DNA from: a virus
Reading direction: 5' to 3' (one strand)
IMG/VR virus record: IMGVR_UViG_3300031598_000011
Coordinates: 1-35,168 of that record
DNA: 35,168 nucleotides
The stretch's first letter is position 1. Every line of letters begins with the position of its first letter. Both the position numbers and the translations under genes were made by a program. The notes under the pieces are model-generated. The model had not been told where the DNA came from, made no database searches, and worked only from the letters and a program-made list of their open reading frames with translations. Of this stretch, positions 1,474 through 26,137 are shown piece after piece.

Positions 1474-1482
1474 GGTAAAATT

Positions 1483-4364: not shown

Positions 4365-4429
4365 AACTGGTATATAGTTACGGTAGTTACGGACAATCTA
4401 TTAACTTTTTTTAAAACAATGGTAGATAA

Positions 4430-5967: not shown

Positions 5968-5988
5968 AATTTATTATAAGGAAATATT

Positions 5989-7410: not shown

Positions 7411-7420
7411 AGTAAGTCTT

Positions 7421-7455
7421 AGAGGGGTGGGTTTATGCTCATCCCTCTTTTTTTT
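7421..7455 (+). terminator. Rho-independent terminator after the capsid gene
   Basis: The 11-bp stem AGAGGGGTGGG (7421-7431) pairs with CTCATCCCTCT (7438-7448) with two G-T wobbles. The loop is TTTATG and an eight-T run (7448-7455) follows. It lies 10 bases after the capsid stop and probably limits read-through, giving more capsid message than downstream message. Confidence 0.9.
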
Positions 7456-7484
7456 AACACTAACTTGGGATTTTAAAAGACACT

Positions 7485-8048: not shown

Positions 8049-8058
8049 AGGATAAACA

Positions 8059-8688: not shown

Positions 8689-8709
8689 TTAGCTGTATTA
8701 ATAGCTAAC

Positions 8710-8741
8710 AAAAAAAGGGGAGCTATCTGCTCCCCTTTTTT
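8710..8741 (+). terminator. Rho-independent terminator, possibly bidirectional
   Basis: The stem GGGGAGC (8717-8723) and GCTCCCC (8729-8735) has a five-base loop and is followed by six T (8736-8741). It is preceded by seven A (8710-8716), so A-T pairs extend the stem and it could act in both directions. A second, weaker inverted repeat TTAGCT/AGCTAA lies just upstream. Confidence 0.9.
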
Positions 8742-8758
8742 CTCTTTGGAGAAGTATA

Positions 8759-11050
8759 GTGGGTCTTTTTAGTACAAAAAGAAAAACGAAAGTAGGAACC
8801 ACAGTGGTAAGGTCCCTGGAGGATGATAAGGTACCTAACTCTCTTATTACTGGGTTCGTTATAGCGCAACAACAAAAGCAGCCTATATACAGTTCTGTAC
8901 TTGAAGAATTCATGGATGGTATATCTCTCAAGGCCGATAGGATGTACACCTATGGCGCTGGCTCTTATACCTATGGGTTGCCTTCAGGGCAATTTCGTTC
9001 TCCCTCTGAAGGCAACCCAGCAGTTAAAACAGTACTAGCAGGCGTTCATAGTGTCGCCGAATCTGCCATAAGTATACAATATACATATGTAGTCCCTTAT
9101 AACATGCACCATGTTGCTTGGATGCAGATTATAGATAATCATGGATATATCGAAGGATCTAATACACTAGGGAATCTAACTGCCTCAATGGGTACTACAG
9201 TGTGGTTAGATGATATGGTTGTAGTCGTACCTGCTGCTGATTATGACTTAGCTTTACTAGAGCTTAATGAAGGATATGATCTTAAAACTTTCCATAAATG
9301 GGGTAGAGTAGCTAGAGCAGGGTATTCTCCCACTAGACCTTATACTCACCATTTCGCTAATTTAGGTATACGAGCACATTCAGCAGTAGAGAGAAGTACT
9401 ACTGCTACAGTAGCTCATGTTAGAGTTCAGTATGTATGGGAAGTTGCAAGTGCGTGGCAACAACATGGATCTACACCTCCAACTATTCACACTAGTAGTT
9501 TCACCCTATCTTTAGCTGCTTATAACGATGCTGCTGATTATTACCATGTTGCATATAATGTAAGTGGGGGAGCAACAAAGTATTGGCTTTATGAAGACGG
9601 CTCTGGTGGATATACGGCATTAGATTTAATATTTAATACCCCACAAACAACTAATGGGCAGTTTTTTCCATTCTTATATTTCCGCTTCAATAAAGCGTCG
9701 CCATTAGCAAATACTAGTTCAGTTGACTATATCCATAGTAAAAAAATGGCTGGCAAAATAGAAATGAACTATGATGAGGTTGTTGCTGAGATAGAGTCAA
9801 ATCCTGGTATTGGTGACGTAGAACAAGCTATGCAGATTATGGCTGTCCCTGCTACCACTTCTAATGAAATAGAACTTAGATATCTATTTGATTTTTGGAA
9901 AGCATATTCTAGCCAAGTAATTGCTACAGATTGGGCTCCAGGTGAGCACAGTCTAGTAATCCAAGATAAACGATTTAAACTTACATTACAAAATAGAGGC
10001 GTAACTACGCACTTAGTTGCGGGCGTAACAGGGATTGTAGGAACTTATTCTATGGTATATGTCCCTGTGACTTGGCCACAGCTTATTGAACATGGTTATA
10101 GATCGACATTAACCGCAGGGGGTAGGCCAGCAGAACATAGGTATCGCCATCAGATTTCAGCTAGCATATATGAAGAGGTTATTGTACGTGATATGCAATT
10201 AATGTTTCATATTATTGGTAACTATACAACTACAGCTGGCGATGGCTATGATCCAAATGGAATTCTATTAACAGTACCTTTAGATCGCTCAATAACACAA
10301 TTTTATTCACTTAGGGATAGAGAAATACTATATTCCCGTGGCCTGCACCTTGTCTTTAACTCTGTAATAATAATTAAAATAAAGTGGTATCAGACCGGTC
10401 TTTTCAAGTTTTTTGTTATGGTTATAATGGTAGCAATTGTTATTGTATCAATGGGTACGATGGCACCTGCGATGGCTATGCAGATAGCTGCTGTTAATTT
10501 TGCATTGGGAGCTGCAGCGGCTAACATGGCTGTTATGGTAGCAATAGCTAAGATGCTGATAGTTACTATAGTTATAGCTGTTGCAGTAAAGTTTATATCT
10601 AAACACTTGGGTCCTGTTGGCTCTATGATTTTAGGTGCTGTATTACTGGCTGCAGCGTTCTACTTCGCTCCAGCTAGTGCATCACTTGCCATGCCTTCGA
10701 TGGGATTTACTAGCTCACAAGTATTGCTACAAATAGCAACTTCACTCCTTACTTTCGATCACTTTGAACGCCTTACTAAGGGTATAGCGGGGAAAATGGC
10801 TGAATTGTCCGTTCTTCAGGATGAAAGGGATAAAGAGTTAGAGGAAGCCAATGCACTACTAGATCAAAGTAATTATCTCTTTCCTTTTGTTATATTTGGG
10901 GAAGAACCAGATGATTTTTACAATAGAACCATACATTCTGGTAATATAGGCATATTGGCAATTGATCAAGTAGAAGCATACGTAGACCAGGCTTTAAAAT
11001 TGCCTACCCTAAGGACTACATTACAACCAATAGCAGTAGGCACACAGTAG
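8759..11050 (+). CDS. Unidentified large virion protein with hydrophobic C-terminal region
   Basis: A 763-residue protein that starts with GTG at 8759. The start is supported by GGAG seven bases upstream and by the terminator just before it. Residues 1-540 are beta-rich with many Tyr, Gly, His and Val and no motif I recognise. Residues about 550-645 form a cluster of hydrophobic segments (FFVMVIMVAIVIVSMG; MLIVTIVIAVAV; ILGAVLLAAAFYF). Residues 680-763 are a charged helical end. Order matches N4 gene 53. A soluble domain joined to a membrane-active region, next to internal virion proteins, suggests a tail-tip or ejection protein that inserts into the cell envelope. That role is inference; it could also be an unusual tail component. 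Confidence 0.6.
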   Translation: MGLFSTKRKTKVGTTVVRSLEDDKVPNSLITGFVIAQQQKQPIYSSVLEEFMDGISLKADRMYTYGAGSYTYGLPSGQFRSPSEGNPAVKTVLAGVHSVAESAISIQYTYVVPYNMHHVAWMQIIDNHGYIEGSNTLGNLTASMGTTVWLDDMVVVVPAADYDLALLELNEGYDLKTFHKWGRVARAGYSPTRPYTHHFANLGIRAHSAVERSTTATVAHVRVQYVWEVASAWQQHGSTPPTIHTSSFTLSLAAYNDAADYYHVAYNVSGGATKYWLYEDGSGGYTALDLIFNTPQTTNGQFFPFLYFRFNKASPLANTSSVDYIHSKKMAGKIEMNYDEVVAEIESNPGIGDVEQAMQIMAVPATTSNEIELRYLFDFWKAYSSQVIATDWAPGEHSLVIQDKRFKLTLQNRGVTTHLVAGVTGIVGTYSMVYVPVTWPQLIEHGYRSTLTAGGRPAEHRYRHQISASIYEEVIVRDMQLMFHIIGNYTTTAGDGYDPNGILLTVPLDRSITQFYSLRDREILYSRGLHLVFNSVIIIKIKWYQTGLFKFFVMVIMVAIVIVSMGTMAPAMAMQIAAVNFALGAAAANMAVMVAIAKMLIVTIVIAVAVKFISKHLGPVGSMILGAVLLAAAFYFAPASASLAMPSMGFTSSQVLLQIATSLLTFDHFERLTKGIAGKMAELSVLQDERDKELEEANALLDQSNYLFPFVIFGEEPDDFYNRTIHSGNIGILAIDQVEAYVDQALKLPTLRTTLQPIAVGTQ
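8975..9018 (+). repeat. Long hairpin inside the 763-residue virion gene
   Basis: GGGTTGCCTTCAG (8975-8987) is followed by its perfect reverse complement CTGAAGGCAACCC (9006-9018). A G-T wobble and a G-C pair extend the stem inward to 15 bp, leaving a 14-base loop. It lies about 215 bases into the gene and has no T run, so it is not a classical terminator. Confidence 0.75.
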
Positions 11051-11069
11051 ATTATAGGAGTATTACAGG

Positions 11070-11624
11070 ATGGCAAGTTCACCATATTCGCAACAAGTTG
11101 ATACCTTTAATAATGCTGGAAATCAACTATATGCTTCACCACACTTAAATCTCCAAAGGCCAGTAGGAGCAGCGTATGGTCCAGCCCTTGGTGCATATAA
11201 TACTCAAGGAGCTCTTCCTGGCTCGGGTTCAAACTTGTGGGGTGGTTCAACCGGCCTTCAGGGGTCACAATTTTCCAATACCGGTATCCAAGGAGGCTTT
11301 AGTGCTGGTGGGGTTGGACTAGGTGGAGGGGGTGGTCTCTGGGGTGGTATGGGAGATATGTTTGGTAAAGTAACTCCAGAAGGTCTTGGGATGGGCGCAG
11401 ATATGCTCCTCGGACTTGGCAAGCTAGGTTTAGGCTTTAAGCAATATGGACAGGCTAAAAAACAACTTAAATTCGCTCGAAATTCATTTAATAAGAATTA
11501 TGCAGCACAAAGGCAAACTACTAATGCTAGTCTAAGGGATAGACAGAGTGCACGGGTTGCTTCTAATCCAGGGGCATACCAATCAGTAGGAGATTACATG
11601 CAACAAAATCAGGTAGCAGCGTAA
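11070..11624 (+). CDS. Small Gly-rich internal virion protein (T7 gp14-like layout)
   Basis: A 184-residue protein with a low-complexity Gly/Ser/Gln-rich N-terminal half (residues 1-105) and a helical C-terminal half (GMGADMLLGLGKLGLGFKQY, then KKQLKFARNSFNKNYAAQRQ and SLRDRQSARVAS). A hydrophobic helix followed by a basic, polar helix resembles T7 gp14-type internal virion proteins, which form the outer-membrane pore of the ejection channel; position matches N4 gene 52. No signal peptide is seen. GGAG lies upstream of the ATG. Its stop TAA overlaps the ATG of the next gene, so the two are probably translated as a pair. The assignment rests on layout and context. Confidence 0.6.
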   Translation: MASSPYSQQVDTFNNAGNQLYASPHLNLQRPVGAAYGPALGAYNTQGALPGSGSNLWGGSTGLQGSQFSNTGIQGGFSAGGVGLGGGGGLWGGMGDMFGKVTPEGLGMGADMLLGLGKLGLGFKQYGQAKKQLKFARNSFNKNYAAQRQTTNASLRDRQSARVASNPGAYQSVGDYMQQNQVAA

Positions 11625-13954
11625 TGGCTATTAATTGGAATAATGTATCTGGTATGGGTAGTGGTAGGGCATTTCAAGGAATGCGTTCAGCCCTTAGTGG
11701 CATGAGTGCAGGTGCTGATCAAATATCTGACACATTCACTAAATATGCAGAAAATAAAAATGCTGGAGATGTTCTAGCATTCAAAGAACTTTTAAATTCT
11801 GCGAGATCACCCGAAGAACTAGAAGCCATGCGCCCAGAATTAGCGTCCTTAAAAGAAGGGATGGGGCAAGCTGGAAGAATAGCTTCAGTTGGTGGTGCTG
11901 ATGCACGATTACGAACACTTAATGCCGAGAACTTAAATAGATTAAATACAATATCCCAAGAAAGGACATATGCACAGGCAACAAAAGATCATGCTCAAAT
12001 GCCGCTTGTAAATAAGATTCACTCTCTATATATACAAGACAAGATGGAAGAGGGTGACGCATTACTGGCAACATTACCTAGTGATAGTACGTTCCTTAAA
12101 GATTTGGCCACAACTAAGTCTCATAAGAATGCTGCTAAAGCAGCAGCAAATGTAGAGCAAACGAAGCTTGGCTTGCTGGAAAGAAAAGAGAATCGAGCAT
12201 TGAAGAATGACCAAGATACTCGACAGGAAAAGATAGCGAAAAACTTTACTACATTCCAAAAAGAAGAAGCTTCTGGTGGTCTAGAAGAGGCTTATAAAAT
12301 AATTGATGGATTTGAAGACGTATCTGATAAAGTTAGAAGTGTCGTTAAGAGGGCCCTTGCAAACAAAGTATCATCAAATGCAAAGTATGGACGTATGAGT
12401 CCAAAAGACCTTGCTAGTATTGCTGCAAGGTATGTTAAGAATCAGAACACCGCATGGTATGATGCTCGTCCGGAAGGCACATTTGGTTCTGCTGATGACG
12501 CTGCTAAGGGTTTAGGTACTGCAATAGATTTCTTCTACCAAAGTCCCAAAAACGTAGAATTTATGGAGGGAAGAGATCAACTCCGTGATTACTATACGAA
12601 TGCACTAAAGAATACCAAACGCCCTACTTTACAAGATTTACAAGGAGATGATGGTCTCAAGTCGATTACTGATGGGGAAGTAGCGGACTACTTCAATAAA
12701 GCTGGACTTAATCCGGAAGCAGGGAATGCTCCTTTAGGAGGGGGTAGTGATGTACCTGTGTCAGGAGTTCCAGCCGGTCCCGCTGATTTTACTATATCAT
12801 CAAAAGGTGATTTAGTGCATAAAGACGACTATCCACAATACGAACTAGAAAACAAAGGTGTCTACACTGGTGGGCTTAATGCCTTACGCCCAGGCGATCT
12901 TGATAATGAACCAGATACAAGTGCACTTGATCGAGAAGTCGCCCAACTGAAGGCAGAAAGTCGTGGCGAACAAGGTGGAGATTTCAAGCTACAGAAACAG
13001 ATTGGTAGTCTATCACAAGGGGTTAAAACCACTTTAGCTAATGACTTGCGCTTCTATAAAAAGGCGTACAAGGAAGGCAATATAACTATTGAGGATACGC
13101 TTTACGCGGTAGCTAATGCCTGGAAAGATAGAAACCCAATGCCAATGGCGGATAGACAGAAAATGTTAGAAATGCATGGTGGAAAGGGTAATGCTTCAAA
13201 TAGTATAACGACCTTTTATGACCAGATTGAATCAGCTATTGAGGATAGCAGTAAATCTGGAGCACCAAAGTCTGGTATACAATTACTACTTGAAAAGGAC
13301 ATACTAGACGAAATCAACCCAATTGAAGCTTTAATTCAGAATATGACACCAGGCATAGATGTGCCATACATGAGGGATGGTAATCCAGAAGTAGAACGGA
13401 TGATATCAAAGCTGCCCGGTCCTCGCCTATTTAATACCTTAATGGGAGATGGTAGTGTTGGGATAAACCCTGCGGTTACTGAGGCTGCAAAAGAAATTGG
13501 TGGAAAATCAGTAGAAATTGGGAGAGCAGCTGCTAAAAGTATTCGAGACTTCGATATTAATGATGTAAGTATTCCTGAGAGTTGGAAACCACTTAATAGT
13601 AGTCGTAATCAAGAAATTATTGATGATCTCAAGGATAGACGCTCTAATTATAGGGATAGCAAGGATAAACTTCTAAAAGGATATTCTAATAGAGAAATCT
13701 TCTCTGGGGACCCAATAGATAGAGTTGTTATGCCTAGGGGTGAAATGCAACCAGATTCCAATAAGCGTATTGTTCAACCAAGAAAGGTCACTGAATTAGT
13801 AAAAACATTACGTGACCAATTAATGGGTACCGGTAAACAAGGTAGAGTATTAAGCAAATTTGAACAACAAATTCTTATGGATCGCTTTAAAGATGCTGGA
13901 CTGTTAAAAGGTAGTACCTATCGCTGGCTTGATCCAGATAATACGTCTCGATAG
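11624..13954 (+). CDS. Large helical internal virion (ejection) protein
   Basis: A 776-residue, soluble, strongly helical and charged protein. It begins with a short Gly-rich segment (MAINWNNVSGMGSGRAFQGM) and long helices (residues 25-230), passes through a Pro/Gly linker near residue 370 (PLGGGSDVPVSGVPAGPADF), and continues into a second helical half. No catalytic motif is visible. It sits between the small Gly-rich protein and the giant virion polymerase, the place of N4 gene 51, and is of the size and character of T7 gp15-like ejected proteins. I infer that it is packaged in the head and enters the periplasm with the DNA. A structural-only role cannot be excluded. Confidence 0.6.
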   Translation: MAINWNNVSGMGSGRAFQGMRSALSGMSAGADQISDTFTKYAENKNAGDVLAFKELLNSARSPEELEAMRPELASLKEGMGQAGRIASVGGADARLRTLNAENLNRLNTISQERTYAQATKDHAQMPLVNKIHSLYIQDKMEEGDALLATLPSDSTFLKDLATTKSHKNAAKAAANVEQTKLGLLERKENRALKNDQDTRQEKIAKNFTTFQKEEASGGLEEAYKIIDGFEDVSDKVRSVVKRALANKVSSNAKYGRMSPKDLASIAARYVKNQNTAWYDARPEGTFGSADDAAKGLGTAIDFFYQSPKNVEFMEGRDQLRDYYTNALKNTKRPTLQDLQGDDGLKSITDGEVADYFNKAGLNPEAGNAPLGGGSDVPVSGVPAGPADFTISSKGDLVHKDDYPQYELENKGVYTGGLNALRPGDLDNEPDTSALDREVAQLKAESRGEQGGDFKLQKQIGSLSQGVKTTLANDLRFYKKAYKEGNITIEDTLYAVANAWKDRNPMPMADRQKMLEMHGGKGNASNSITTFYDQIESAIEDSSKSGAPKSGIQLLLEKDILDEINPIEALIQNMTPGIDVPYMRDGNPEVERMISKLPGPRLFNTLMGDGSVGINPAVTEAAKEIGGKSVEIGRAAAKSIRDFDINDVSIPESWKPLNSSRNQEIIDDLKDRRSNYRDSKDKLLKGYSNREIFSGDPIDRVVMPRGEMQPDSNKRIVQPRKVTELVKTLRDQLMGTGKQGRVLSKFEQQILMDRFKDAGLLKGSTYRWLDPDNTSR

Positions 13955-14005
13955 AAGGCCATATTTCGTGAATCTTCTATATTTAATTGAACTACTGAGG
14001 TATAA

Positions 14006-17000
14006 ATGGCTAACCCTTTTGACTATGATACATATTTTAGCAATAAAGCAGCAGAAGCAAATGATCCTCTTGTTCAAAAGCTAGATGGCATAGTTGCCAC
14101 TCACGATAAAAAATTAGAAGAATTAGAAGATACATCCTGGGTAAAAAAATATAATTTAGATCCTAATAGTGTCGCAGGTAATGTAGTAGATACTGCCGCA
14201 TCCCTTGTATCTGGAGCATCTCGTGTTGCTGGTCACTTACGTCAGCTGCCCAATAGTGTAACGGCTAGCATTTACAATGCAAATGTTGATAATAGCCATA
14301 TCTCTGCATACAATAGATTCCAAGGTGGTAAAGCAACCCCTCAGGATATCAACCTCTTAAATACTAGACCCAGCCCAAATCTACAAACACCATTAGAGAA
14401 TATAAAAGCTTCACAAGCGAACCGTGCTGCAGCCCAAGAAATTAATGAATATCACAATGTAAGAAATATTGTTGATCAATCTGGGCGTGAAGCTTTCACT
14501 AAAGAAATAGGTGAAGGCTTTGAGAAAAACTATTCTGAGGCTACTGAAGGAGTAGATGAGATTAAGGAAGGGGAGTTTATCGCTGGACTCTCTAAACTAA
14601 CCTCAGGAGTAGGTAAGTTAATAGCTAATGCTGGGTCAGCTGTACTTAATAATAAAGCTACTGCAGTAGAGTATATAGTTGAGAATATACCCCAACTTGC
14701 TCTTGGAGTATTTGGAAAAGCAGGTACTATTGCTTTAGTGAGTAGTAATGCTGGCTATGCAATAGAACAGTATCAGATGGGACTTGAGGCATATAAGAAA
14801 AAACATAATGGACAACTACCCTCAGTAGAAAAACAAGAAGAGATGGCTGGAAATGCACTTATGCTTGCTGTTGTAGAGCATGGTAGTGATGTAGTCAGTT
14901 TAGGTATGACTAAGCTAGCAGGCAAAGCAGTTACGAAAGCAGCTGGAGATGCTGCTAATCGTACTAGTATACCGAAAGCAGTTAAAGAAACCGCTAAGGG
15001 AGGCACAGTAGGTTTAATTACTGAAGCTCCTACTGAAGCCTATCAAACATACATAGAAGGTAAGATTGTTGATGAGCCTGCAACACCTAAAGATATATTT
15101 ACAAGCGGTGTGATTGGTGGAGTTGCTGGTCTTGGATTAGCTGGTAGTGGTCGTGCTTTACATGAAGGTGCAAAGCTATCTGCGCAGAAAGCTAGATTTA
15201 AAGATGATCCTATAGAGAAAGGTTTAGCTGAGAGGAGTGCTGCAGCCATAGAGAGCGGGGATATAAATTCAATGGTTGACCCTGCTAATAAGAAGACTTA
15301 TGCCCCTGATGAGGCTATAAGGGCTTTACATGGTAATGCCAAAAGAGAAGATACAACAGAAGAAACTAAGCAAGAGCACCTAAAGACAGCTGATGATGCA
15401 ATTGAAGCATTAGTTAAAAAAGAGACCGCATTAGAGGGAATATTAGAGAGTACTGAAACCTTACAAGGTATAGTTAATAAGGCTTCACTTCAGGTACAAG
15501 AACTTGAATCAGCTGAATCCCCTGATTTGTCTAGGATAACAGAACTTAAAACAATTGTAGATGCTTACCAATCTGAGATTGATCGAAGGAAAGATAAAGG
15601 GGAACTATCAAAGGCGGAGAGAAAAGCTTATGAGAAAGAACTAGCTGAGAAAAAAGCCATACTTGTTAGAGCTAGAAAAGAAAAAGTTGAGTTAGACGAG
15701 TATGTAATACCAAACAAGGTAATGGACAAGCTAATAGATAAAGCTGCTGGTACAGATACTCTAACACCAGAAATGTCTGCGGCAATAGATTTCATAAAAA
15801 GCTTTGATGATGCTGGTGGGGCAGTAATGAGTACTGCACCCATGAAGAGAGTAGCAGAAGCTCTAGGATTAACTCTTGATTCTAAAGAAAAACCAGAAGC
15901 TCTCGCTGAGAGAATACGTGAAAAAATAGTTGGTAGTGCAAATACTAAGGAGGTAGCTGCTACTCCAAGTGATAATACAGAGGCTACACGGGCTGCTAAC
16001 ATAGTGATAACACATGCTATGAAGAATACTGACCGAGTACCTACTGAAAAGCTAAAGAAGATAGCTAACAATAAAGGTAATGGTCTTACTAAGTCACAGA
16101 GGGATTTCCTACGCAAAGTAGCAAAAGCACGAGAGCTTAAGAAGTTTTCTGAAGGTTTAGTTTTAACATCCAAGGATATATTTGAAGGCAACCAAGGAAA
16201 TAAAGGACTTCTTCAACATACCCAAGTTTTCAACAAAGCAATAAAAGCTAATAAAGCAAATGAAGCAGCTAATGAGATAGATGCTTTAAAGAAATTCGCA
16301 ACTGCTCATTCTGATAAAGCTTGGGCATTGTCTAATATACATGCAGCACTTAAACCAAATGAAGAGGTACAAGCAGTTCTTGATGCCAATAAAGGTTGGA
16401 GTGTAAACAAAGGTGAGACATTAAGTCCTGCAGAGTTAAAGAAAAGAAATGGGTTAATAATTAGGAAAACCTCATTTAAGTTAATTGATGCAATTAAGAG
16501 TGAAGCACGGGCGCTTAAAGCTGCTCTTACGGCAATGGAATCCCAGTATAATCTCGTATTCTCTAATATTCCTCTTGATGACCTTAAAGGGGGCGGAGAT
16601 GATGATGACCAAGCCTCAGTTGTTAAAACAAAGGAAACAGAACAAGTAAAGGCAGAGGTTAAAAAATCTACTGCTAAACAAAGAGCTGAATCAAAGAAGG
16701 TTATTACTTCAGACGATACCATGAATGAAGCTATCATTAAGATGGGTGGTATCAGTACTACTTTGAAGCTTGATATAACTGGTGATACTAAAGGCAATCA
16801 GGGAATCCCATTCATTGGTTCATTATTTAAAGAAGATGGAAAGTTTACTGACTTATCTGATCTAGCTACACAGCTAGAACAGTATGGATACTTTACGCAA
16901 GCAGAATTAGAGGATGTGGATGGTGGGGCTCAATTACTAAGAGACCGTATACGTGAAGAATATGACGGTGGAGAGGCTCATAAAATATCATCAGAAATAG

Positions 17001-20000
17001 AAGACGAAGCAGAAGCTGCCATGCAAGAAAGGGCAGAGCAAGATCAAGAAAAATCAGAACAAGTAAAAGAAGAAGATTTTAATATATGGAGTGGTTCAGG
17101 GGAGAATGCAATCCTTAGTAATCTTGCTAATCGACCTTTTACATATGGAGGTATAAAGTATAAATCAGTTGAACATGCTTACCAAACTGTGAAGTCTGGT
17201 AAATTTGATCAACAAACGTATGATTACAAGGGTTGGGGGAAAAATAATAAACTTCGTGGTCGTCTAAGCGAGAATAGAGATAAGAATTTAGACATCATGG
17301 ATACATTAATACGTACCTCTCTTGCTTCTGGGGAACCGGAAGCTGTTGAGGCGCTTGCGCTATTAAAGGAATCAGGTAATAAGACGATTACCCATAAGGG
17401 CCCTTATGGATCTGATATTTGGACAACAGAATTTCCTCGTATATTAGATAAAATACGGACCCAAGAAAGGGCAGAAAATCCAGAGCAAATAGATAATAAA
17501 GATATAATTATATTTCCTAATGGGCTCAACATTATAAAAGGTTTTACGCCTATTAGTGAGTTAGAAAAGTTTTATAAAAGTGGAGCAATCCAACAATTAA
17601 TTAAATCTAATAAGCTTGAGACACAAAAAGCTCGAGATACTGCTTGGTTTGGGCCAGTTCCATATTCGTACTCGAATGGGACATATGAGCATGTGCAGAA
17701 AGATATGCCCCCAGTACTTATCAAGATAGCTGAAACCTTAGAGCAAGAACTTGGACATAAGCCAGGCTACCTTAATAGTGGGTTAATGAATGTAATTCCT
17801 GCAGGTAATAAAATTGGTAAACACGCAGATGCTGAAAGTATTTTCTTACGTGATGATGAAACTATAGGGTCTGTAGTCACTGTTAGTTTTGGTGGAGAGG
17901 CAAAGATTACGATAACACGTAACGGTGGTAAGAGAGAAAGTATGTCATTTACGGCAGAGAGTGGTGATATATACACTATGCCAGATGGTAAGTTTCAACA
18001 AGAGTACTTACATGCGGTAGGACCAGCAGAGACTGAACGAGTTAGCTTAACTTTTAGACATATACCTAGGAGTGTAATAAAAAAGGCAGAACAAACGGAA
18101 GCAGCATTACCTGTAGAAGAAATTAAAGGATTAAATGCGCTTAATAGAGAATCTAAACCTGCTATAACAGGTGAAGATGGTACTGAAAGTCAACTTCGTG
18201 AGATTATAGCTGAGGACTTTCTACAGACCGATGGTATTGGTACTGATGGAAAAACAAACCCACTGATTACTGTTAAAGATCTATATACAGCGTATGAGAA
18301 AAAGGAAATTGAAATTGCAGATTTCTTGGATTCTGAGGGTTTAACTGAAAAACAAGATCAAGCAATAAAAGAATTCTTTTCTACATCAGCAAAATGGTTC
18401 GATAATATTCAGGAAAACTTACCAAAATTTGTACCAGATAATCTCAGGCAAAATGATGTAATGCAGTACTTCGTAGATACTGTGGGTGAGGTTAGAGACA
18501 CAGAAGAGAATGTTAAACTTGCTATATCCCTTGCAGTTATTAAGTATATAGGCGATCACGCTAGTGATAACTTTAGTCTATCAGATGAACGTATTAATCA
18601 GATTTTAGGAAGAGATAGAGATACACCAGTATCTAAGACTGCAAGAAAAGAATTAGGGACTAGTGGAGTATCTAGATCTATATTACTAGATAGTTTAGGC
18701 ACCACAGTTATGCAAGCCTTAGGACTTAAAGCAAAGAATACTACAGGACAACATTGGGAAGCTAGATTACGTGCTACCTTAGGGCAACATGCATTAAAAC
18801 TAGCTGAAGATTCAGGCTTAATAGTAGCTACATCTATAACCAATAAGAGTATGACGACCTTAGTACAAGAAGGTCTTGATAGTAAGCAAATAGAAGAACT
18901 TAGTAAAAGGAAGTCTGGTCAGCCTACAGTGGCTCCTACAACATCTGGGGAAGTAGAAGTACATAAAAGGACTGATGTAAGTGATGATAAAGCTGCACAT
19001 ATATTTTATGCAATAACACGTGGGGTGAAGACTAAGAAGAAGTACACTCAACAACTCCCGTCTCCACAAGCTGAAAAGATTAGAGAGATTACTAGTGGGT
19101 CAGAAGGCATACTTAATAAATTATTTGGCGTAGAAGGAGGAAATAAAACACCTACTTTAAGTCCAACTAAGTCTATTAATACTAAGATTAAAAGCGGCGT
19201 AAGAACTATTACATCTCTAATTCCTGAAGTATTAATAGATGTTATTAATAAAAAAGTTGAGACTAAGCATAATTTAAATGTACCTGTTGTAAGAGTATTA
19301 GAGTCTCTTATAGGGTCTAATAAAGATATTTGGGATAATAATCCTATACTGTTTAGAGTACTTGGAGCTCCTACTATAACTCCTCAGAATACTCATGTTA
19401 TTAATCGGCCTGGCGCAGAAGCGGGGAATACAGCAAGAATATTAGAATACGACAATATTGTACGTTTTGCTAACGAACTATTAATACCTTCTAAAGAAGG
19501 TCTTGATACACCCTTCTATTATGACCATACAGTATGGAAACAGCATAGAGTTGGAATTGCCCAAGCAGATTTTAATCCAGTAAACAGTAAAATATCTCGC
19601 TACCTATCCGCTGCAACATCATGGAAAGAAACTATTACGATAGGTGATAATCCAGCAATGACAAGGTTTGCCTTAACAATTGCTGAAGACCTAGGAATTA
19701 GAATTGAAGAGAGACAATTTGATTCTATTTGGTCTGAAGTTCAAAAAAGAATATCTAACCAAGAATTACCATATTTTGCTGCCATTGACGCAATAACAGA
19801 GTTATTAACTGATGGTGTAATTCTTACTCCTGATCAGCAAAATGATATTGCTGTTGCAGTAGAAGCAGGCGGGCAGAATGTACAATCGCTTAATGCTCTT
19901 GTCAATTTAGCTTCTTATAAGGCTGCTAAAGATAGGAAGGCAAAAACGGGTAATAAAAATCAAACATTTGATGCACAGATGGTATCAGTAACTGATGGTG

Positions 20001-23000
20001 TAGCCAATGGTACTATGATTAACCATATTCTATATGGGGCCTTTAATAATGTTAAAGACTTAGCAAAATTTGTAATAAAAGGTGGTATTTTTAGTAAAGG
20101 AGATAGTTACGCGAATTACCCTGCTTGGAGAAGTAAACATGGAAATAAAGATATTTATGAGGCTACAGGTGCAAAGTTAAAAGATGTTTTGGCAGATGAT
20201 ACGTACATGGATAGCTTTAGGGATGAATCCTATCCAATAATCGCCTCAATTGAAGTAATTGCTAAGCCGCTCTTTGCTGGCGATATGCGAAAGCTTATTA
20301 AAGGTGTTTTTAATCCTCTAATGTTTAGTTCTAGTATGTTTCGTATACAAGAGAAACTAGGAGATGACTTTATTAGTCAATACTATAAGGGGCTTGAGCG
20401 TATATCAGTAAAATATAACAGTTATGGTACTAATAAAACTAAAGCGCAACGTAACGAACATAAAGAAGAACTTGATATTTATATTGAGAGTGTAAACTGG
20501 CTCCTCGAAAAAGGTGGAGCTGAGCTACTAAATACTGAGTTGTCCATACAAACACTTATGGAGACCGAACTTACTGACGACCAAGTACTTAAATTAAAAG
20601 CTGAGTTTAAAGAATACATAAGTGCCCCGCTTATAAAGATACTAAGGGAAGATTTTGCAGTATTTATAGATCGTCAAGATAAAATTAATAAAGCAGCACA
20701 AATGGCTAGTGGTTTATATATAGTAATTTATGAAAGCGAACGTAAAGTAGAGATTGAAAGGTTAATGGAGAAAGGTGAAATAGCAAAAACTAAGAGTGGA
20801 AATCCAGCTAGCGATATGAATGCTAAACAGGAAGCTGCCTTTGCTAAATCACTTAAGGAAAGGGGAATAGAACCAATAGTACATACTGCAATGTCAAAAG
20901 CAGAGGATAACTTAGAGAGTGGTTTATTCTTGGGTAAATCTTTCCGTAGTACAGCTGAGTATGGTAATTCAGCTTATACAGCTAGAGTCCGTCACAATAG
21001 GAAAACTGTGGGTGGTGCTAATTCAGCATCTGTCAGAGGATTTAGAAGCTATCTTGAAAGTGTTGGGATATCTACACCTGCATGGTTGACCCATTCACTT
21101 GATAGCCAAACATCCCATCTTACACAATTAGAGTACGATATATTAAACATACATGATGGTCTAGGTGGGAGTTTAAGTAACCATGACGGTATTGTAAAAC
21201 TAGTAAACGAAAACTTTGCTAAGTCTGTATTGGCATACTCTCCAGGAGAAGAGCTAGCTAATACTCTAGAGCGGGTAGTTCAAGGTGTCTCTACTATGAT
21301 AAAAGCTGGAGAGCTCTCTCCGGATACCTTACAAGCATTGACAATATTTTTAACAAATACCGCAGAAAAGATAAATAGAGATAATAAATGGAATAGTGAC
21401 TATATTAAAACTTCTGGGAGAGAAGTACTAGGGCAAACAATCTCGGGTATAGTAGAGTCTACTTTTAAAGCAAATGAACTTAAGTTCCAGTTACTACAAA
21501 ATTTAGAAAATGTTGGACAATATGCCTCTCATACTAGTAGTTTTGAAGTGCCACAAGAGTTCCGTAAAAAGGCAAATACAAAACTACTAGAATTATATAA
21601 AGCTGGTAATAAGCTTGATTCAAATGTAAGCAAAGCAGAGAAATCAATTATAGGAGAACTTGACTTTGGGGAGGAGCAAGTTACAGAGACTGAGTTTGGT
21701 AAATTAGGGACCTCTAACACAGAGTCTAATACTGCTTTGGTTGACTTTTTTGAGCGTAATAAAAAGACCACAGCTAAGAAAGTATTTCAAATATTAGAAA
21801 ATACATATGGTAAGGATACTGGTGTAACTAATAGTGATTTCTATCTAAAACTATTAACTAAGTTAAAGCTAGCATTACCAGATGATTTGCCGATTACTTA
21901 TATTACTGCTGATACAAAGAAAGAGGATATCCGTGGCGTACCAGAAGACTTAGAGGTACGCGGTTGGACATATAGAGATGGGCAAAAAGTAGGAGTTGCT
22001 ATTCTAGGTACCGAATTTAAAAACTCTGGAATAACCCATGAGCTATTAGTACATGAGTTGATGCATGCGGCATTATCTGGATTTATTGCAAAGAAAACAA
22101 ATAACCCACATATTGTTGCTTTAGGGAAATTACGTATACAAGCTATAGAATATATTGAGGCCAATAGGAAAGAGTTTTCCGAGAAAGAACTTAGAGGTTT
22201 TAATGCAGCAACTAGTAATCTAGACGAATTTATATCCTGGGGTATGTCTAACACTCAGTTCCAACAAAAAGTATTAATTAAACTAACACCACCAGAGAAT
22301 AAGCAGGAGTCTTGGCTTTCAACCCTTAGAGATGGCTTACAGGAGTTTATCTTTGAGATTGCTAGCGCATTCTTTGGTTCTTGGACTAGGACTGATAGCA
22401 CAGCTGTCACTGGTATGCATGAACTAATAGTGCATGTCTCAGGGCTTATGGAACAAGTTATTGAGAGTAGGGATGCTAAAGATACAGGGGATACTTCAGG
22501 TGGGCTTACTATACTGCCTATGATATCAGGAACTACTATAGATGCAGATATTGAAGCATACACTACATTAGATATTTTTAACGCATTCCCAGATGATGGG
22601 AGAGGAGCACCAGAGTTTAAAGATCACCTTCGTGAATTACTAGAAGGTATCGTTGATAAGCTTCACGGGCCCTTTGGAAGCTTCAAGGAAGCCTTACGGA
22701 AGGATGCGGCTAGTAACCCCTTAGAAGTGTGGCTTAAGGCGTTAGACGATGGTAAAGCACCCTTTGCATCGGAAATACTAGGTTCAGGATTTACTGGCAA
22801 TAAGCAGCAGGGTTTCGTTATACAACAAGTTGAAGCTACTATGCGTGCTGCTTTAGATTCTAATATGCATACTGTAACCAATGAATCATTGCGCACAGAG
22901 CTAAAAAGATTATTTAAAGAAACTAAAGATCGGCTTACTCCAGAAGATTTCAGAGGTAAATTCGGAGCAAACACATTAGAAGATGCTACAGAACTATATG

Positions 23001-26000
23001 ATTTTGTTTTTAGTGCAAAAGCTCGTGAAGACGGCAAATCAGATTACTTGGCTAGATTTGCAGCTTTATCTTTAGCACATGAAGAATTTAATAGTCTTTT
23101 GAAAATACCTACTGAGGCTCGTAACCCTGACGCAGTAAGTTTAGATTTCCTTGACCGTTTAATAGCTCTCTATAAAAGTGTTTTGGATTTCTTTCATCGT
23201 AAACTTGCTAATATTGAGAAAGGCCAGAATATTGATGAAAGACTAACTACCTTAGTAGAGCAATTAGTGGCTGTTGAAGCCCAACGTAGATATGAGCTTA
23301 AACTTGAGGCTAAAGGTCCTAACCCTATTATAGAGTCTGCGGAAGAGCTCGCTAGAGCAGTAACTGAAAAGGCAACTGAAAAGGTTATAAAAGCAGCCAA
23401 GTCACCTATAGTAAGAAAATCAGGTAGTGGCATTATTAGGGGAACAGCTGCACTTGTTGATACCTTAGCCTCGGGACGTTTAGAGGGAGTACTGCAAGTA
23501 CTAATTGATAAGAAAAACTCTTATCAAGATGGGCAGCTAAAGCTGGGAGAAGGAATAATAAATGCTATCAAAAATCCTCTTGAGGCATATGAATTACTTG
23601 TTCGAGGACGTAAGCGTTTAGAAGGTGAAGTTGTACAAGAAATAGCTTCTGTAGGTGAAACACTTAGAGATGCTTTTGAAGATAAAAATCTACCTGCAGA
23701 GACTAAAGATGCAATTACAGCTGTACTCTTACGTTCAGGAGTACATAATCTTGCAGCAGCAGGGTTTACCTTAAGTGATATAGAAAACTTGATAGGCAAT
23801 ACTACTGCAATAAAAGCAGAGATTAAAAAACTTGAAGACACTCTAGATCAGTTTGGAGCACTTAAAGCAGAATTTATTGAAAATGCAAATGCACTAGGTT
23901 TTAGTAGAATAGGGGGAGAAACTAAGGTTCAGGAGTTTAAACACAATGCTTACCAAATAACTAGGCGTTTTGGTGTTAATAGGAATGTAGATCCTCTTAA
24001 TGAATCACAGCTAAAACGAGCTGATAAAACTATCAAATCATTGATCACATTGTATGCATTATTTTACTTAGAAGGCGGAGATACAACAAGAAAGCAGTCA
24101 GCAGAAATTAAAAAACTTATGCAAACAGAAAATGCCCGATCTGTAGAAGAGGGTAATGGTATTGAATTAGCTCTTGGTTTACATAAAGCATTAGAAGATC
24201 AGGCATTAATTGAAGAATTTGATGGTAACCCAGTAAAAATGGTGCATGGATATGTGCCAGAAATTTATAACTATCGTATAAAAGTAGAGACAGCAACTGA
24301 GGCAGAAGGCAAAGAGCTTATTAATCAGAGGTATGTTAAGAGTAGTTTACCAGTACCAATTGACCCAGGCGATCCAAATCAAGAACCTAAATACCTTTAT
24401 ACACTTTTAGATGGTGGTATGCCGCCATACTTAACTTCTGCTGTCGGGTTCGGTAGTCTTAAGAGTAAGGGTACCTCAGTCTATGATAATTATATGTTGC
24501 CAAATACAGTAGCTGGACAATCTAATTTGGCTATACATAACCATATTATGAAACACCGTAACAGGAACAGAATAAAACCTTCAGCAAACTTTAATCCAAC
24601 TAAAGTGAAAGAAAATTATGCAGCACCTATCTATAGTGATAAGGGTGACATAGTAGGAATGAGATACTTAATGACTACAAGGACTAGGAATACTTTACTA
24701 GAACGCGATAATAACTATGAGTCAGTATTAGGAGAATTAGCGGGTTCTATTATGGGTAAGAAAAGTACTATAGAGCAGAACAAGGTAGCCATCAAAATTA
24801 TGCGAGAACAGTATGAACTAGAGTATATTACTAGGGGTAAATCATATCTATTAGTTGGAGAGGATAGTTCTGATCCAGAATTAAAGGCTATTTGGGATAG
24901 GCTTCCTACCCAGACAAAGAAGGATGTTAAAGAAATTTGGGATCGTAATGGGGTAATGATTCGTAGAGATTCGGTAGATATATTATTTGGATACCCAAAA
25001 GTGGGAATGGGTGATATGTTCAGACGGGCAAATGATGAACGTATGATTAGAAAGGCTAAAAATCTTCCTACTAATTTACAGGATTTAGAGGAAATTACTA
25101 AAGTAGAGAAACTTGTTATTGCTGTAATAGAGGGAATGTTACGTACAAACCATAGATTGCGAGGCCATACTGAAGATGAAGCTAAAGACTATGCTAAGGG
25201 TGCAGCATACTTAGTATCTAGAGGTGAGAATATGTGGCAAGGTGTAGTTACTGAAGTAAAGGATATAATAGTTGTAAAAAGTGGTATCGTATTATTAGGT
25301 AATATGACTAGTAATATCTCAATGTTATATTTGCAAGGGGTGCCTATGGCGGATGCTGTTAAGTACACCATAGTAGCGTATAACTCTGCCACTCAACATA
25401 AGAAAGATCTTAATGAGTTAAATAGTCTACGTATTTCATTAACAGCAAACTATACCAAAGGTAATCAAAACCGTATTACCCAACGTATGACTGAACTAGA
25501 GGATTCTATTAAACGTAATCCAGTAACTCCACTAATAAATGCTGGTCTAATGCCAACAATTGTAGAAGATTTAGATATGACTGAAGATAAGTACTCTTTC
25601 AAAAGTGTACTTACAAAGAAAGTTGAGAAACAGCTTGATAAACTACCTGATGGAATGGTAAAAGTTCTCCGTGCAGCATATATGACTAGAGATAGTAAAA
25701 TGTACCAAGGGCTGGCACATCTTACACAGATGTCAGATTTTACATCTCGATATGCCTTATATCAACATCAGACTACGCGTACAAAAAATAGACTATCCCA
25801 TGAAGAGGCTATTCGACATGCTAGCAGATCTTTTGTAAATTACGATATTCCATTACATCGTTGGCTACAATACAGTGATGATATGGGGCTTACTTTATTT
25901 ACTAAGTATTTCTTATATATACAAAGTGAATTGCTAAGGGTAGTTAAAGGAAACCCTGGACGAGCACTTTCGCTATTAATGATGCAAAATTATCTAGACA

Positions 26001-26137
26001 TTCTGCCACCTCATATCATAGAAAGTTCTATGTTCGCGCATGCAGGCAATATCCCTCTTGGTTCAGGCATCTTTAGATATCCTGATGCAGTGCAAACTAT
26101 ACCTGCTATGGCAGGTGCTCTTGCGATATTAAAATGA
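14006..26137 (+). CDS. Giant N4-type virion RNA polymerase fused to NADAR, AlkB and peptidase domains
   Basis: A 4043-residue protein in the position of N4 gene 50, whose product is injected to transcribe early genes. Start: ATG with GAGG upstream. The N-terminus has helical and hydrophobic segments (about 217-310 and 362-387). A NADAR domain (about 1024-1153) and an AlkB-type dioxygenase (1163-1356) follow. The polymerase core spans about 1430-2530: R1848 (degenerate TxxGR motif), D1997 of motif A (TDGVANG), R2095/K2099 of motif B, and D2384 of motif C (NIHDGLGG). A-to-B spacing is 98 and B-to-C 289, against 107 and 285 in N4 as I recall it. Next comes HELMH (2683-2687). The C-terminal 1250 residues are helical with no motif I can name. 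It is longer than N4 gp50 (about 3500). Domain calls are by motif reading. Confidence 0.9.
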   Translation: MANPFDYDTYFSNKAAEANDPLVQKLDGIVATHDKKLEELEDTSWVKKYNLDPNSVAGNVVDTAASLVSGASRVAGHLRQLPNSVTASIYNANVDNSHISAYNRFQGGKATPQDINLLNTRPSPNLQTPLENIKASQANRAAAQEINEYHNVRNIVDQSGREAFTKEIGEGFEKNYSEATEGVDEIKEGEFIAGLSKLTSGVGKLIANAGSAVLNNKATAVEYIVENIPQLALGVFGKAGTIALVSSNAGYAIEQYQMGLEAYKKKHNGQLPSVEKQEEMAGNALMLAVVEHGSDVVSLGMTKLAGKAVTKAAGDAANRTSIPKAVKETAKGGTVGLITEAPTEAYQTYIEGKIVDEPATPKDIFTSGVIGGVAGLGLAGSGRALHEGAKLSAQKARFKDDPIEKGLAERSAAAIESGDINSMVDPANKKTYAPDEAIRALHGNAKREDTTEETKQEHLKTADDAIEALVKKETALEGILESTETLQGIVNKASLQVQELESAESPDLSRITELKTIVDAYQSEIDRRKDKGELSKAERKAYEKELAEKKAILVRARKEKVELDEYVIPNKVMDKLIDKAAGTDTLTPEMSAAIDFIKSFDDAGGAVMSTAPMKRVAEALGLTLDSKEKPEALAERIREKIVGSANTKEVAATPSDNTEATRAANIVITHAMKNTDRVPTEKLKKIANNKGNGLTKSQRDFLRKVAKARELKKFSEGLVLTSKDIFEGNQGNKGLLQHTQVFNKAIKANKANEAANEIDALKKFATAHSDKAWALSNIHAALKPNEEVQAVLDANKGWSVNKGETLSPAELKKRNGLIIRKTSFKLIDAIKSEARALKAALTAMESQYNLVFSNIPLDDLKGGGDDDDQASVVKTKETEQVKAEVKKSTAKQRAESKKVITSDDTMNEAIIKMGGISTTLKLDITGDTKGNQGIPFIGSLFKEDGKFTDLSDLATQLEQYGYFTQAELEDVDGGAQLLRDRIREEYDGGEAHKISSEIEDEAEAAMQERAEQDQEKSEQVKEEDFNIWSGSGENAILSNLANRPFTYGGIKYKSVEHAYQTVKSGKFDQQTYDYKGWGKNNKLRGRLSENRDKNLDIMDTLIRTSLASGEPEAVEALALLKESGNKTITHKGPYGSDIWTTEFPRILDKIRTQERAENPEQIDNKDIIIFPNGLNIIKGFTPISELEKFYKSGAIQQLIKSNKLETQKARDTAWFGPVPYSYSNGTYEHVQKDMPPVLIKIAETLEQELGHKPGYLNSGLMNVIPAGNKIGKHADAESIFLRDDETIGSVVTVSFGGEAKITITRNGGKRESMSFTAESGDIYTMPDGKFQQEYLHAVGPAETERVSLTFRHIPRSVIKKAEQTEAALPVEEIKGLNALNRESKPAITGEDGTESQLREIIAEDFLQTDGIGTDGKTNPLITVKDLYTAYEKKEIEIADFLDSEGLTEKQDQAIKEFFSTSAKWFDNIQENLPKFVPDNLRQNDVMQYFVDTVGEVRDTEENVKLAISLAVIKYIGDHASDNFSLSDERINQILGRDRDTPVSKTARKELGTSGVSRSILLDSLGTTVMQALGLKAKNTTGQHWEARLRATLGQHALKLAEDSGLIVATSITNKSMTTLVQEGLDSKQIEELSKRKSGQPTVAPTTSGEVEVHKRTDVSDDKAAHIFYAITRGVKTKKKYTQQLPSPQAEKIREITSGSEGILNKLFGVEGGNKTPTLSPTKSINTKIKSGVRTITSLIPEVLIDVINKKVETKHNLNVPVVRVLESLIGSNKDIWDNNPILFRVLGAPTITPQNTHVINRPGAEAGNTARILEYDNIVRFANELLIPSKEGLDTPFYYDHTVWKQHRVGIAQADFNPVNSKISRYLSAATSWKETITIGDNPAMTRFALTIAEDLGIRIEERQFDSIWSEVQKRISNQELPYFAAIDAITELLTDGVILTPDQQNDIAVAVEAGGQNVQSLNALVNLASYKAAKDRKAKTGNKNQTFDAQMVSVTDGVANGTMINHILYGAFNNVKDLAKFVIKGGIFSKGDSYANYPAWRSKHGNKDIYEATGAKLKDVLADDTYMDSFRDESYPIIASIEVIAKPLFAGDMRKLIKGVFNPLMFSSSMFRIQEKLGDDFISQYYKGLERISVKYNSYGTNKTKAQRNEHKEELDIYIESVNWLLEKGGAELLNTELSIQTLMETELTDDQVLKLKAEFKEYISAPLIKILREDFAVFIDRQDKINKAAQMASGLYIVIYESERKVEIERLMEKGEIAKTKSGNPASDMNAKQEAAFAKSLKERGIEPIVHTAMSKAEDNLESGLFLGKSFRSTAEYGNSAYTARVRHNRKTVGGANSASVRGFRSYLESVGISTPAWLTHSLDSQTSHLTQLEYDILNIHDGLGGSLSNHDGIVKLVNENFAKSVLAYSPGEELANTLERVVQGVSTMIKAGELSPDTLQALTIFLTNTAEKINRDNKWNSDYIKTSGREVLGQTISGIVESTFKANELKFQLLQNLENVGQYASHTSSFEVPQEFRKKANTKLLELYKAGNKLDSNVSKAEKSIIGELDFGEEQVTETEFGKLGTSNTESNTALVDFFERNKKTTAKKVFQILENTYGKDTGVTNSDFYLKLLTKLKLALPDDLPITYITADTKKEDIRGVPEDLEVRGWTYRDGQKVGVAILGTEFKNSGITHELLVHELMHAALSGFIAKKTNNPHIVALGKLRIQAIEYIEANRKEFSEKELRGFNAATSNLDEFISWGMSNTQFQQKVLIKLTPPENKQESWLSTLRDGLQEFIFEIASAFFGSWTRTDSTAVTGMHELIVHVSGLMEQVIESRDAKDTGDTSGGLTILPMISGTTIDADIEAYTTLDIFNAFPDDGRGAPEFKDHLRELLEGIVDKLHGPFGSFKEALRKDAASNPLEVWLKALDDGKAPFASEILGSGFTGNKQQGFVIQQVEATMRAALDSNMHTVTNESLRTELKRLFKETKDRLTPEDFRGKFGANTLEDATELYDFVFSAKAREDGKSDYLARFAALSLAHEEFNSLLKIPTEARNPDAVSLDFLDRLIALYKSVLDFFHRKLANIEKGQNIDERLTTLVEQLVAVEAQRRYELKLEAKGPNPIIESAEELARAVTEKATEKVIKAAKSPIVRKSGSGIIRGTAALVDTLASGRLEGVLQVLIDKKNSYQDGQLKLGEGIINAIKNPLEAYELLVRGRKRLEGEVVQEIASVGETLRDAFEDKNLPAETKDAITAVLLRSGVHNLAAAGFTLSDIENLIGNTTAIKAEIKKLEDTLDQFGALKAEFIENANALGFSRIGGETKVQEFKHNAYQITRRFGVNRNVDPLNESQLKRADKTIKSLITLYALFYLEGGDTTRKQSAEIKKLMQTENARSVEEGNGIELALGLHKALEDQALIEEFDGNPVKMVHGYVPEIYNYRIKVETATEAEGKELINQRYVKSSLPVPIDPGDPNQEPKYLYTLLDGGMPPYLTSAVGFGSLKSKGTSVYDNYMLPNTVAGQSNLAIHNHIMKHRNRNRIKPSANFNPTKVKENYAAPIYSDKGDIVGMRYLMTTRTRNTLLERDNNYESVLGELAGSIMGKKSTIEQNKVAIKIMREQYELEYITRGKSYLLVGEDSSDPELKAIWDRLPTQTKKDVKEIWDRNGVMIRRDSVDILFGYPKVGMGDMFRRANDERMIRKAKNLPTNLQDLEEITKVEKLVIAVIEGMLRTNHRLRGHTEDEAKDYAKGAAYLVSRGENMWQGVVTEVKDIIVVKSGIVLLGNMTSNISMLYLQGVPMADAVKYTIVAYNSATQHKKDLNELNSLRISLTANYTKGNQNRITQRMTELEDSIKRNPVTPLINAGLMPTIVEDLDMTEDKYSFKSVLTKKVEKQLDKLPDGMVKVLRAAYMTRDSKMYQGLAHLTQMSDFTSRYALYQHQTTRTKNRLSHEEAIRHASRSFVNYDIPLHRWLQYSDDMGLTLFTKYFLYIQSELLRVVKGNPGRALSLLMMQNYLDILPPHIIESSMFAHAGNIPLGSGIFRYPDAVQTIPAMAGALAILK
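17075..17464 (+). other. NADAR domain within the giant protein
   Basis: Residues about 1024-1153. The opening NIWSGSGENAILSNLA and GGIKYKSVEHAYQTVKSG match the NADAR/YbiA pattern (FSNF-like start, then the EH-x-YQ helix). It closes with THKGPYGSDIWTTEFPRIL. Members act on ADP-ribose-type substrates, and some remove ADP-ribose from guanine in DNA, reversing DarT-type toxins. A highly acidic linker (about 990-1024) precedes it. Family call is strong; substrate is inference. Confidence 0.85.
17392..17409. repeat. 18-bp perfect palindrome in the NADAR region
   Basis: CCATAAGGGCCCTTATGG reads the same on both strands. It falls in codons for THKGPYG. It could form a cruciform or a dimer-binding site, or be a product of codon choice. 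Confidence 0.6.
17492..18073 (+). other. AlkB-type 2-oxoglutarate/Fe(II) dioxygenase domain
   Basis: Residues about 1163-1356. The iron ligands are H1273 and D1275 (KHADAE) and H1336 (EYLHAVGP). R1345 and R1351 (RVSLTFR) have the RxxxxxR spacing typical of AlkB. The preceding LNSGLMNVIPAGNKIGKHAD matches the AlkB NS-x-L-x-N nucleotide-recognition region. Known members remove methyl groups from damaged bases in DNA or RNA by oxidation. All key residues are present, so it is probably active. Confidence 0.9.
18293..21595 (+). other. Virion RNA polymerase core (T7/N4 single-subunit type)
   Basis: Residues about 1430-2530, about the size of the N4 mini-vRNAP (1106 residues). Motif A: D1997 in VTDGVANG, followed by KGGIF as in N4. 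Motif B: R2095, K2099 and F2107, aligned without gaps to N4 R666, K670 and Y678. Motif C: D2384 in NIHDGLGG. The TxxGR motif reads WKQHR (1844-1848), keeping only the Arg, with FNP following. Boundaries are approximate. Confidence 0.88.
21923..22375 (+). other. HExxH metallopeptidase-like segment of the giant protein
   Basis: Residues about 2640-2790. HELMH (2683-2687) lies in a helix (THELLVHELMHAALSGFI), and a likely third ligand, E2741, lies in NLDEFISWGM 54 residues after the second His. This is a zincin arrangement seen in large phage and plasmid multidomain proteins. Self-processing or attack on a host protein are both possible; neither is shown. Confidence 0.65.

Follow-up and report, generated by a model that had tools for sequence, protein, structure and literature searches.

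A NADAR-AlkB pair in the linker of an N4-type virion RNA polymerase, with a parallel on crAss-type injected polymerases

In the window, the whole 35,168-nucleotide stretch of DNA that was analysed (a 35 kb fragment, IMG/VR record IMGVR_UViG_3300031598_000011), we identified a virion RNA polymerase (vRNAP) gene that encodes, in one protein of 4043 residues, a NADAR domain and an AlkB-type dioxygenase upstream of the polymerase. The architecture is almost certainly that of a NADAR-AlkB cassette inserted in the linker between the N-terminal domain (NTD) and the polymerase of a Schitoviridae vRNAP. What is new here is this pair on an N4-type vRNAP; that crAss-like phages offer a parallel was unexpected. 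The features on which the description rests are listed below with their position, strand and basis.

1..11624, + strand: N4-like late block (PHROG matches)
46-1473, + strand: terminase, TerL (PHROG)
2154-4364, + strand: portal (PHROG)
4813-5967, + strand: phrog_2120 protein (PHROG)
5989-7410, + strand: major capsid (PHROG)
8759-11050, + strand: gp53-position gene (within the late block matched by PHROG)
11070-11624, + strand: gp52-position gene (within the late block matched by PHROG)
11624..13954, + strand: gp51-position gene, ejection protein (synteny with the LUZ7/LIT1 loci)
13997..14000, + strand: Shine-Dalgarno-like GAGG before the ATG (read in the sequence)
14006..26137, + strand: N4-type virion RNA polymerase gene, gp50-like, 4043 aa (phrog_2206, tblastn, second contig)
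14174..16585, + strand: N-terminal domain, residues 57-860, homologous to the injection/membrane domain of N4 gp50 (27% identity to LUZ7/LIT1)
17066..17470, + strand: NADAR of the phage (gp30.3) type, residues 1021-1155 (homologues, fold, catalytic E1056, K1063 and H1130)
17504..18073, + strand: AlkB-type Fe(II)/2-oxoglutarate dioxygenase, residues 1167-1356 (PF13532, ALKBH3 sequence match, fold match)
18323..21685, + strand: single-subunit (T7/N4-type) RNA polymerase domain, residues 1440-2560 (alignment to 12 vRNAPs, 16-29% identity)
19988..20011, + strand: motif A, VTDGVANG, residues 1995-2002, catalytic D1997 (D, G, N and G invariant in the alignment)
20282..20305, + strand: motif B, DMRKLIKG, R2095/K2099 (R and K invariant)
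21152..21169, + strand: motif C, HDGLGG, H2383-D2384 (H-D invariant)
21893..22375, + strand: zincin (C1) domain with HELMH (2683-2687) at 22052-22066, ancestral and common to most N4-type vRNAPs (alignment, HMM, PMC12633501, PMC5512222)
22403..26134, + strand: C-terminal (C2) domain, residues 2800-4043 (30% identity to LUZ7/LIT1)

The vRNAP gene was a single open frame of 4043 codons, with the GAGG motif located 5-9 bases upstream of its ATG start. A second IMG/VR contig (3300031140_000087) contained the complete gene with 99.95% nucleotide identity and zero indels; over the 17 kb compared, the two contigs differed by 8 substitutions, 6 of which fell in the vRNAP gene, and 4 of those 6 were silent. 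The uninterrupted frame described in an earlier note, made from the sequence alone, was thus recovered intact in two contigs. GC, GC3 and codon use were constant across the NADAR-AlkB insert and gave no sign of recent acquisition, which argues that the insert is neither a recent arrival nor a join of unlike sequences. A single-sequence scan for close relatives of the insert retrieved only the second copy of the gene. The earlier note had raised the possibility of a frameshift error joining separate genes and, indeed, such a domain order was previously undescribed for N4 vRNAPs. Nevertheless, an assembly chimera or frameshift can hardly be entertained, and is refuted as far as sequence allows, given the gap-free independent contig, the uniform composition and codon use, and the occurrence of the same domains, in the same frame, on other injected polymerases.

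The late-gene order was that of a textbook N4-like phage (Schitoviridae), with terminase, portal and capsid followed by the gp53, gp52 and gp51 positions and then the vRNAP; the gp51-position gene had no PHROG or Pfam match. Downstream of the vRNAP, replication genes were found on the opposite strand. A frame of 91 aa (26139-26414, + strand), which begins two bases past the vRNAP stop, showed weak SprT-like and phage-peptidase similarity.

The polymerase backbone was identified by a match of phrog_2206 (virion RNA polymerase) to residues 57-4035 at E=0. Matches of 16-30% identity were obtained by tblastn with vRNAPs from N4-like phages that infect Pseudomonas (LUZ7, KPP21, LIT1), Vibrio, Acinetobacter, Pectobacterium and enterobacteria; the vRNAP of Littlefix was also matched. 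An HMM of the N-terminal domain matched the second copy at 2.6e-211, a score that is not independent, as its seed includes the window protein. The window protein departed from the other polymerases by an alanine in place of threonine in motif A (DGVANG) and by FS in place of YG in motif B; as its catalytic residues lie in invariant columns of the alignment, the polymerase should be active. A PDB sequence search with the polymerase segment returned nothing. With these matches, the conserved motifs and the N4-like late operon, the N4-type identity proposed in the earlier note was upheld, and the order that it gave (NADAR, AlkB, polymerase motifs A-C, HELMH) was correct by coordinates. Its view of the peptidase as extra cargo, and thus as an unusual addition, was rejected: an HExxH zincin is an ordinary, standard part of N4 vRNAPs, present in most of the N4 type (alignment; PMC12633501, PMC5512222). 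Its motif varies among these proteins (HELLH, HELVH, HEIMH, HELTH and others), and some vibriophages lack or have lost it.

The NADAR domain did not match the Pfam NADAR family PF08719, and matched PF08010 (gp30.3/Phage_30_3) at 2.8e-4 with 21 bits, for a cut-off of 36. Its identity to a domain annotated as DUF1768 (NADAR) in a crAss-like phage was 36-40%, and the gp30.3 proteins of Aeromonas phage ZPAH1 and T4 also aligned with it. The columns of E1056, K1063 and H1130 were invariant among 48 sequences. NADAR and AlkB were modelled as separate domains with AlphaFold. The NADAR model reached a pLDDT of 87.6, and its only good PDB matches were E. coli YbiA (probability 1.00) and a Phytophthora NADAR (0.98), one of the two being a NADAR-ADP-ribose complex. 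The fold named in the earlier note was therefore confirmed, with the catalytic residues intact, and assignment of the domain as a divergent NADAR, predicted from fold and homologues, is secure. A hallmark of phage NADARs is that the last strand has a histidine where Glu/Asp stands in other NADARs (PMC11125620, PMC11543638). This last-strand His places the window NADAR in the same subfamily as T4 gp30.3, which differs in being a stand-alone early protein, unfused to a virion protein, with 21% identity to the window NADAR. A DarT1-associated antitoxin NADAR was considered and rejected, since His replaces the catalytic Asp and no darT-like gene was recognised in the window.

AlkB removes N-alkyl adducts and requires O2 and 2-oxoglutarate, and ALKBH3 acts on single-stranded DNA and RNA. 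The second domain of the cassette matched PF13532 (2OG-FeII_Oxy_2) at 5e-13, with 50 bits for a curated cut-off of 31; the match to the alkb equivalog TIGR00568 was weak (18 bits). The iron triad (H1273, D1275, H1336) was kept, as were the arginines R1345 and R1351 (RxxxTxR, 2OG/substrate). The nearest PDB sequence was that of human ALKBH3 (4e-4). Although the model had a pLDDT of only 63, most of the 50 matches listed were AlkB or ALKBH proteins, the best being AlkB with DNA (5e-8). This AlkB/ALKBH3-like fold, with its catalytic residues intact, bore out the structure anticipated in the earlier note. The domain has in common with E. coli AlkB and human ALKBH3 the HxD...H...RxxxTxR core (fold match probability 1.00), but is only 16-18% identical to them and is embedded in a polymerase. 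Among named phages, the search for AlkB relatives gave one weak match, in a Salicola phage (5e-3).

To locate the insertion, we aligned 13 vRNAPs: the NADAR-AlkB segment occupies the place of a short proline/glutamate-rich stretch found in the others between the NTD and the polymerase. In N4, residues 907-1006 form a 100-residue low-complexity NTD-polymerase linker, disordered by cryo-EM (PMC12633501). The vRNAPs of N4 (gp50), LUZ7, LIT1/DEV and KPP21 share with the window protein the NTD, the T7-like polymerase, the HExxH zincin (C1) and C2, and the loci of N4-like phages have the same gp53-gp52-gp51-gp50 order of positions; their linker of about 100 residues, however, lacks NADAR and AlkB, whereas that of the window is a 566-residue segment. 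This was the most length-variable region of the vRNAP, the window having the longest stretch, versus 43-503 residues elsewhere (about 107 extracted N4-type vRNAP frames besides the window and the second copy, truncated frames being ignored for the minimum). None of these approximately 107 frames had a recognisable NADAR or AlkB. Likewise, no stand-alone NADAR or AlkB was found in 48 N4-like records without the window's gene, a negative that is strong only for AlkB because PF08719 misses even the window NADAR.

Scanning viral contigs with a NADAR profile, seeded partly with crAss NADARs, yielded 64 further loci, and 57 of the 65 viral NADARs were in frames of more than 1200 aa. Two of them, L123 (4664 aa) and L124 (at least 5186 aa), were divergent N4-type vRNAPs (polymerase profile, 3e-24 and 8e-45; CTD profile, 1e-100 and 5e-110, respectively) with the NADAR in the polymerase-CTD linker. 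Their NADARs were sisters of the window NADAR (support 100/97), so that both flexible linkers of N4-type vRNAPs have served as a site for NADAR. A NADAR related to the window's was also observed in a DUF4326-NADAR-cpYpsA (SLOG) frame (L127:3-2450).

Most of the other NADARs were on crAss-type polymerases: 53 of the 66 NADAR-bearing frames (65 viral and one from a bacterial MAG) matched a crAss RNAP profile. About 50 were giant crAss-type virion RNAPs with an embedded phage-type NADAR, positioned before or after the catalytic motif (MT774391.1 5509-12717; NC_055901.1 13777-31182; L131-L186); the contigs in which these domains were read were fragmentary, and several were cut off at the stored end. 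The single locus from the genome collection (L273, Pseudomonadales MAG WLWP01000004.1), a crAss-type giant with a C-terminal NADAR, is probably on a phage contig binned in that MAG. In cr126_1, the clearest case, a 2402-aa orthologue of crAss001 gp50 (30% identity over 1342 aa, DFDxD motif) had an N-terminal NADAR, which crAss001 gp50 itself lacks; in cr130_1, NADAR was fused to a crAss-type vRNAP whose frame reads TAG as a sense codon. The protein crAss001 gp50 is present in virions by mass spectrometry (PMC10172136). These crAss-type vRNAPs (crAss001 gp50, phi14:2 gp66) resemble the window protein as injected RNAPs, some of which carry a phage-type NADAR and AlkB, but their polymerase fold, of the DFDxD double-psi-barrel type, is unrelated to that of N4, and the NADAR lies on either the N- or the C-terminal side.

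Both AlkB and NADAR were present in one frame in six crAss-type giants (L141, L149, L151, L154, L164, L169), usually in the order AlkB then NADAR, opposite to that of the window. AlkB was found in 6 of 47 distinct crAss-type giants that bear NADAR and in 1 of 75 that do not (Fisher p=0.013), a value that is optimistic because crAss NADARs formed part of the seed of the scan and related phages do not provide independent observations. When crAss-type vRNAPs were sampled by polymerase motif, 5 of 80 had NADAR (about 6%) and 1 of 80 had AlkB (about 1%); with such a minority of carriers, neither domain is essential. The closest relative found of the window AlkB was that of L169 (1e-14). The nearest NADARs being N4-type (L123/L124) and the nearest AlkB crAss-type, the pair seems to have been assembled more than once.

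Polyvalent proteins, as described by Iyer et al. in 2017, include N4-type RNAPs fused to a zincin and to the effectors ART, lysozyme and PBECR (PMC5512222). As a large, virion-linked multidomain protein with RNAP, zincin and effectors, the window vRNAP falls within that definition; its added pair differs in consisting of removal enzymes, not modifiers. A text search of PMC5512222 found no mention of NADAR or AlkB. According to a 2022 survey, in which crAss phages do not appear, phage NADARs are typically stand-alone proteins (PMC9503650). In the open-access literature we found no paper tying NADAR or AlkB to a virion RNA polymerase, the only match being a jumbo-phage review that draws no such connection. 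The earlier note knew of no N4-type polymerase with this domain set; the novelty holds for the NADAR/AlkB pair, whereas effector-bearing N4-type vRNAPs were already a known class (PMC5512222).

As judged from sequence, NADAR, sometimes with AlkB, is repeatedly joined to unrelated injected polymerases, and this suggests that help at entry matters to phages. The co-delivery put forward in the earlier note gains comparative support, because NADAR (six times with AlkB) is also fused to crAss-type vRNAPs. About four copies of the N4 vRNAP are packed and enter the cell, where the inner membrane holds the NTD while refolding of the polymerase takes place in the cytoplasm (PMC12633501). By analogy, the window protein is very probably packaged and injected: as in N4 and crAss001, the head would contain a few copies, which would leave it together with the DNA; as in N4, the N-terminal domain would remain membrane-bound, in the inner membrane, and the polymerase would refold on the cytoplasmic side at genome entry, with the cassette emerging beside the entering DNA. 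There, NADAR would hydrolyse guanine-linked ADP-ribose and AlkB would oxidatively strip N-alkyl groups from bases. The tethered pair could then reverse host-defence or damage adducts on phage DNA or on the first transcripts, and the template would be kept readable during the first minutes. The zincin may free domains by self-cleavage, a mechanism put forward for polyvalent proteins (PMC5512222).

In our view, a polymerase-tethered module that is delivered with the genome and removes base adducts is the best explanation overall, at roughly even odds of being right; we see an equal balance for and against the pair acting on nucleic-acid base adducts, and only tentatively suggest that action on incoming DNA is its selected function. 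Guanine-ADPr in DNA was a substrate of every NADAR assayed so far (PMC11543638, PMC11125620). The one phage NADAR among them, T4 gp30.3, cleared this adduct in vitro, yet it failed to rescue cells from DarT1 (PMC11125620). We counted this non-rescue against the explanation, as well as the argument for soluble ADP-ribose targets discussed below, the low number of copies per cell (about four in N4), the cofactor needs of AlkB and the minority occurrence of both domains. The presence of NADAR, sometimes with AlkB, on two unrelated injected RNAPs gives a direct prediction about the target of phage NADARs during infection: the substrate would be met at or just after entry, beside the template.

A different role, which we regard as somewhat unlikely, is that NADAR degrades small ADP-ribose signals or toxins of host NAD-based defences at entry, with AlkB having an unrelated job (e.g., erasing methyl marks) and the polymerase serving as vehicle only. 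A survey from the Aravind group argues that phage NADARs target mainly soluble ADP-ribose derivatives (PMC9503650). The SLOG and DUF4326 domains that accompany the L127 NADAR, a soluble-ADPr toolkit, and the differing fusion position among vRNAP families point the same way. This role does not account for the coupling with AlkB, seen both in the window and in six crAss-type vRNAPs, however, and every NADAR tested cleaved guanine-ADPr in DNA (PMC11125620). The pair might instead work on RNA, where it would repair tRNA, or the early transcripts of the polymerase itself, after attack by host enzymes that ADP-ribosylate, cap or methylate them. Such activity would agree with the literature linking NADARs to RNA repair (PMC9503650), with the proximity in sequence of the AlkB segment to ALKBH3 and with a tether that puts the pair at the nascent RNA. 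We nevertheless consider it improbable: no RNA-repair genes were seen in the window, and the fold search cannot tell DNA from RNA enzymes.

The location of the vRNAP in the late gene block, which means that it is made during DNA replication and packaging, would also suit domains that act late in the producing cell, where they would clean replicated DNA before packaging, their presence in the virion being incidental. A separate gene would serve this purpose better, and fusion to N4-type and crAss-type vRNAPs, alike only in being injected, points to entry; we hold action in the producing cell to be very unlikely.

A broader extension of the tethered-module explanation, put forward tentatively, is that NADAR with AlkB forms a recurrent, convergently assembled adduct-reversal module on any injected RNAP, whether of T7/N4 or crAss fold, and that the linkers are general cargo sites. 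Tethered repair and counter-defence would then accompany the incoming genome from the outset. In this light, the N4 vRNAP's two disordered linkers, which have been known as flexible tethers and nothing more, are suggested to be insertion and ejection sites for cargo domains. Such general cargo sites would also cover the SF1 helicase, transglycosylase and second zincin of other vRNAPs.

Several of these domains were observed in the sampled N4-type proteins. An SF1 (RecD/Pif1-like, AAA_30 + UvrD_C_2) helicase lay between the polymerase and the CTD in L062 (12089-14266; vRNAP of 4700 aa), L064 (12038-14620; vRNAP of 4994 aa) and L124 (residues about 2600-3150). A transglycosylase was present at the N-terminus of the vRNAP in L054 and others. 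A second zincin was found in the NTD-polymerase linker of L091 (residues 1113-1212) and L106 (residues 1018-1120), in the latter in addition to the usual zincin after the polymerase. Among the sampled vRNAP segments, one matched FtsK gamma (DNA-translocase targeting) at 1e-21 and one a phage lysozyme at 1e-3.
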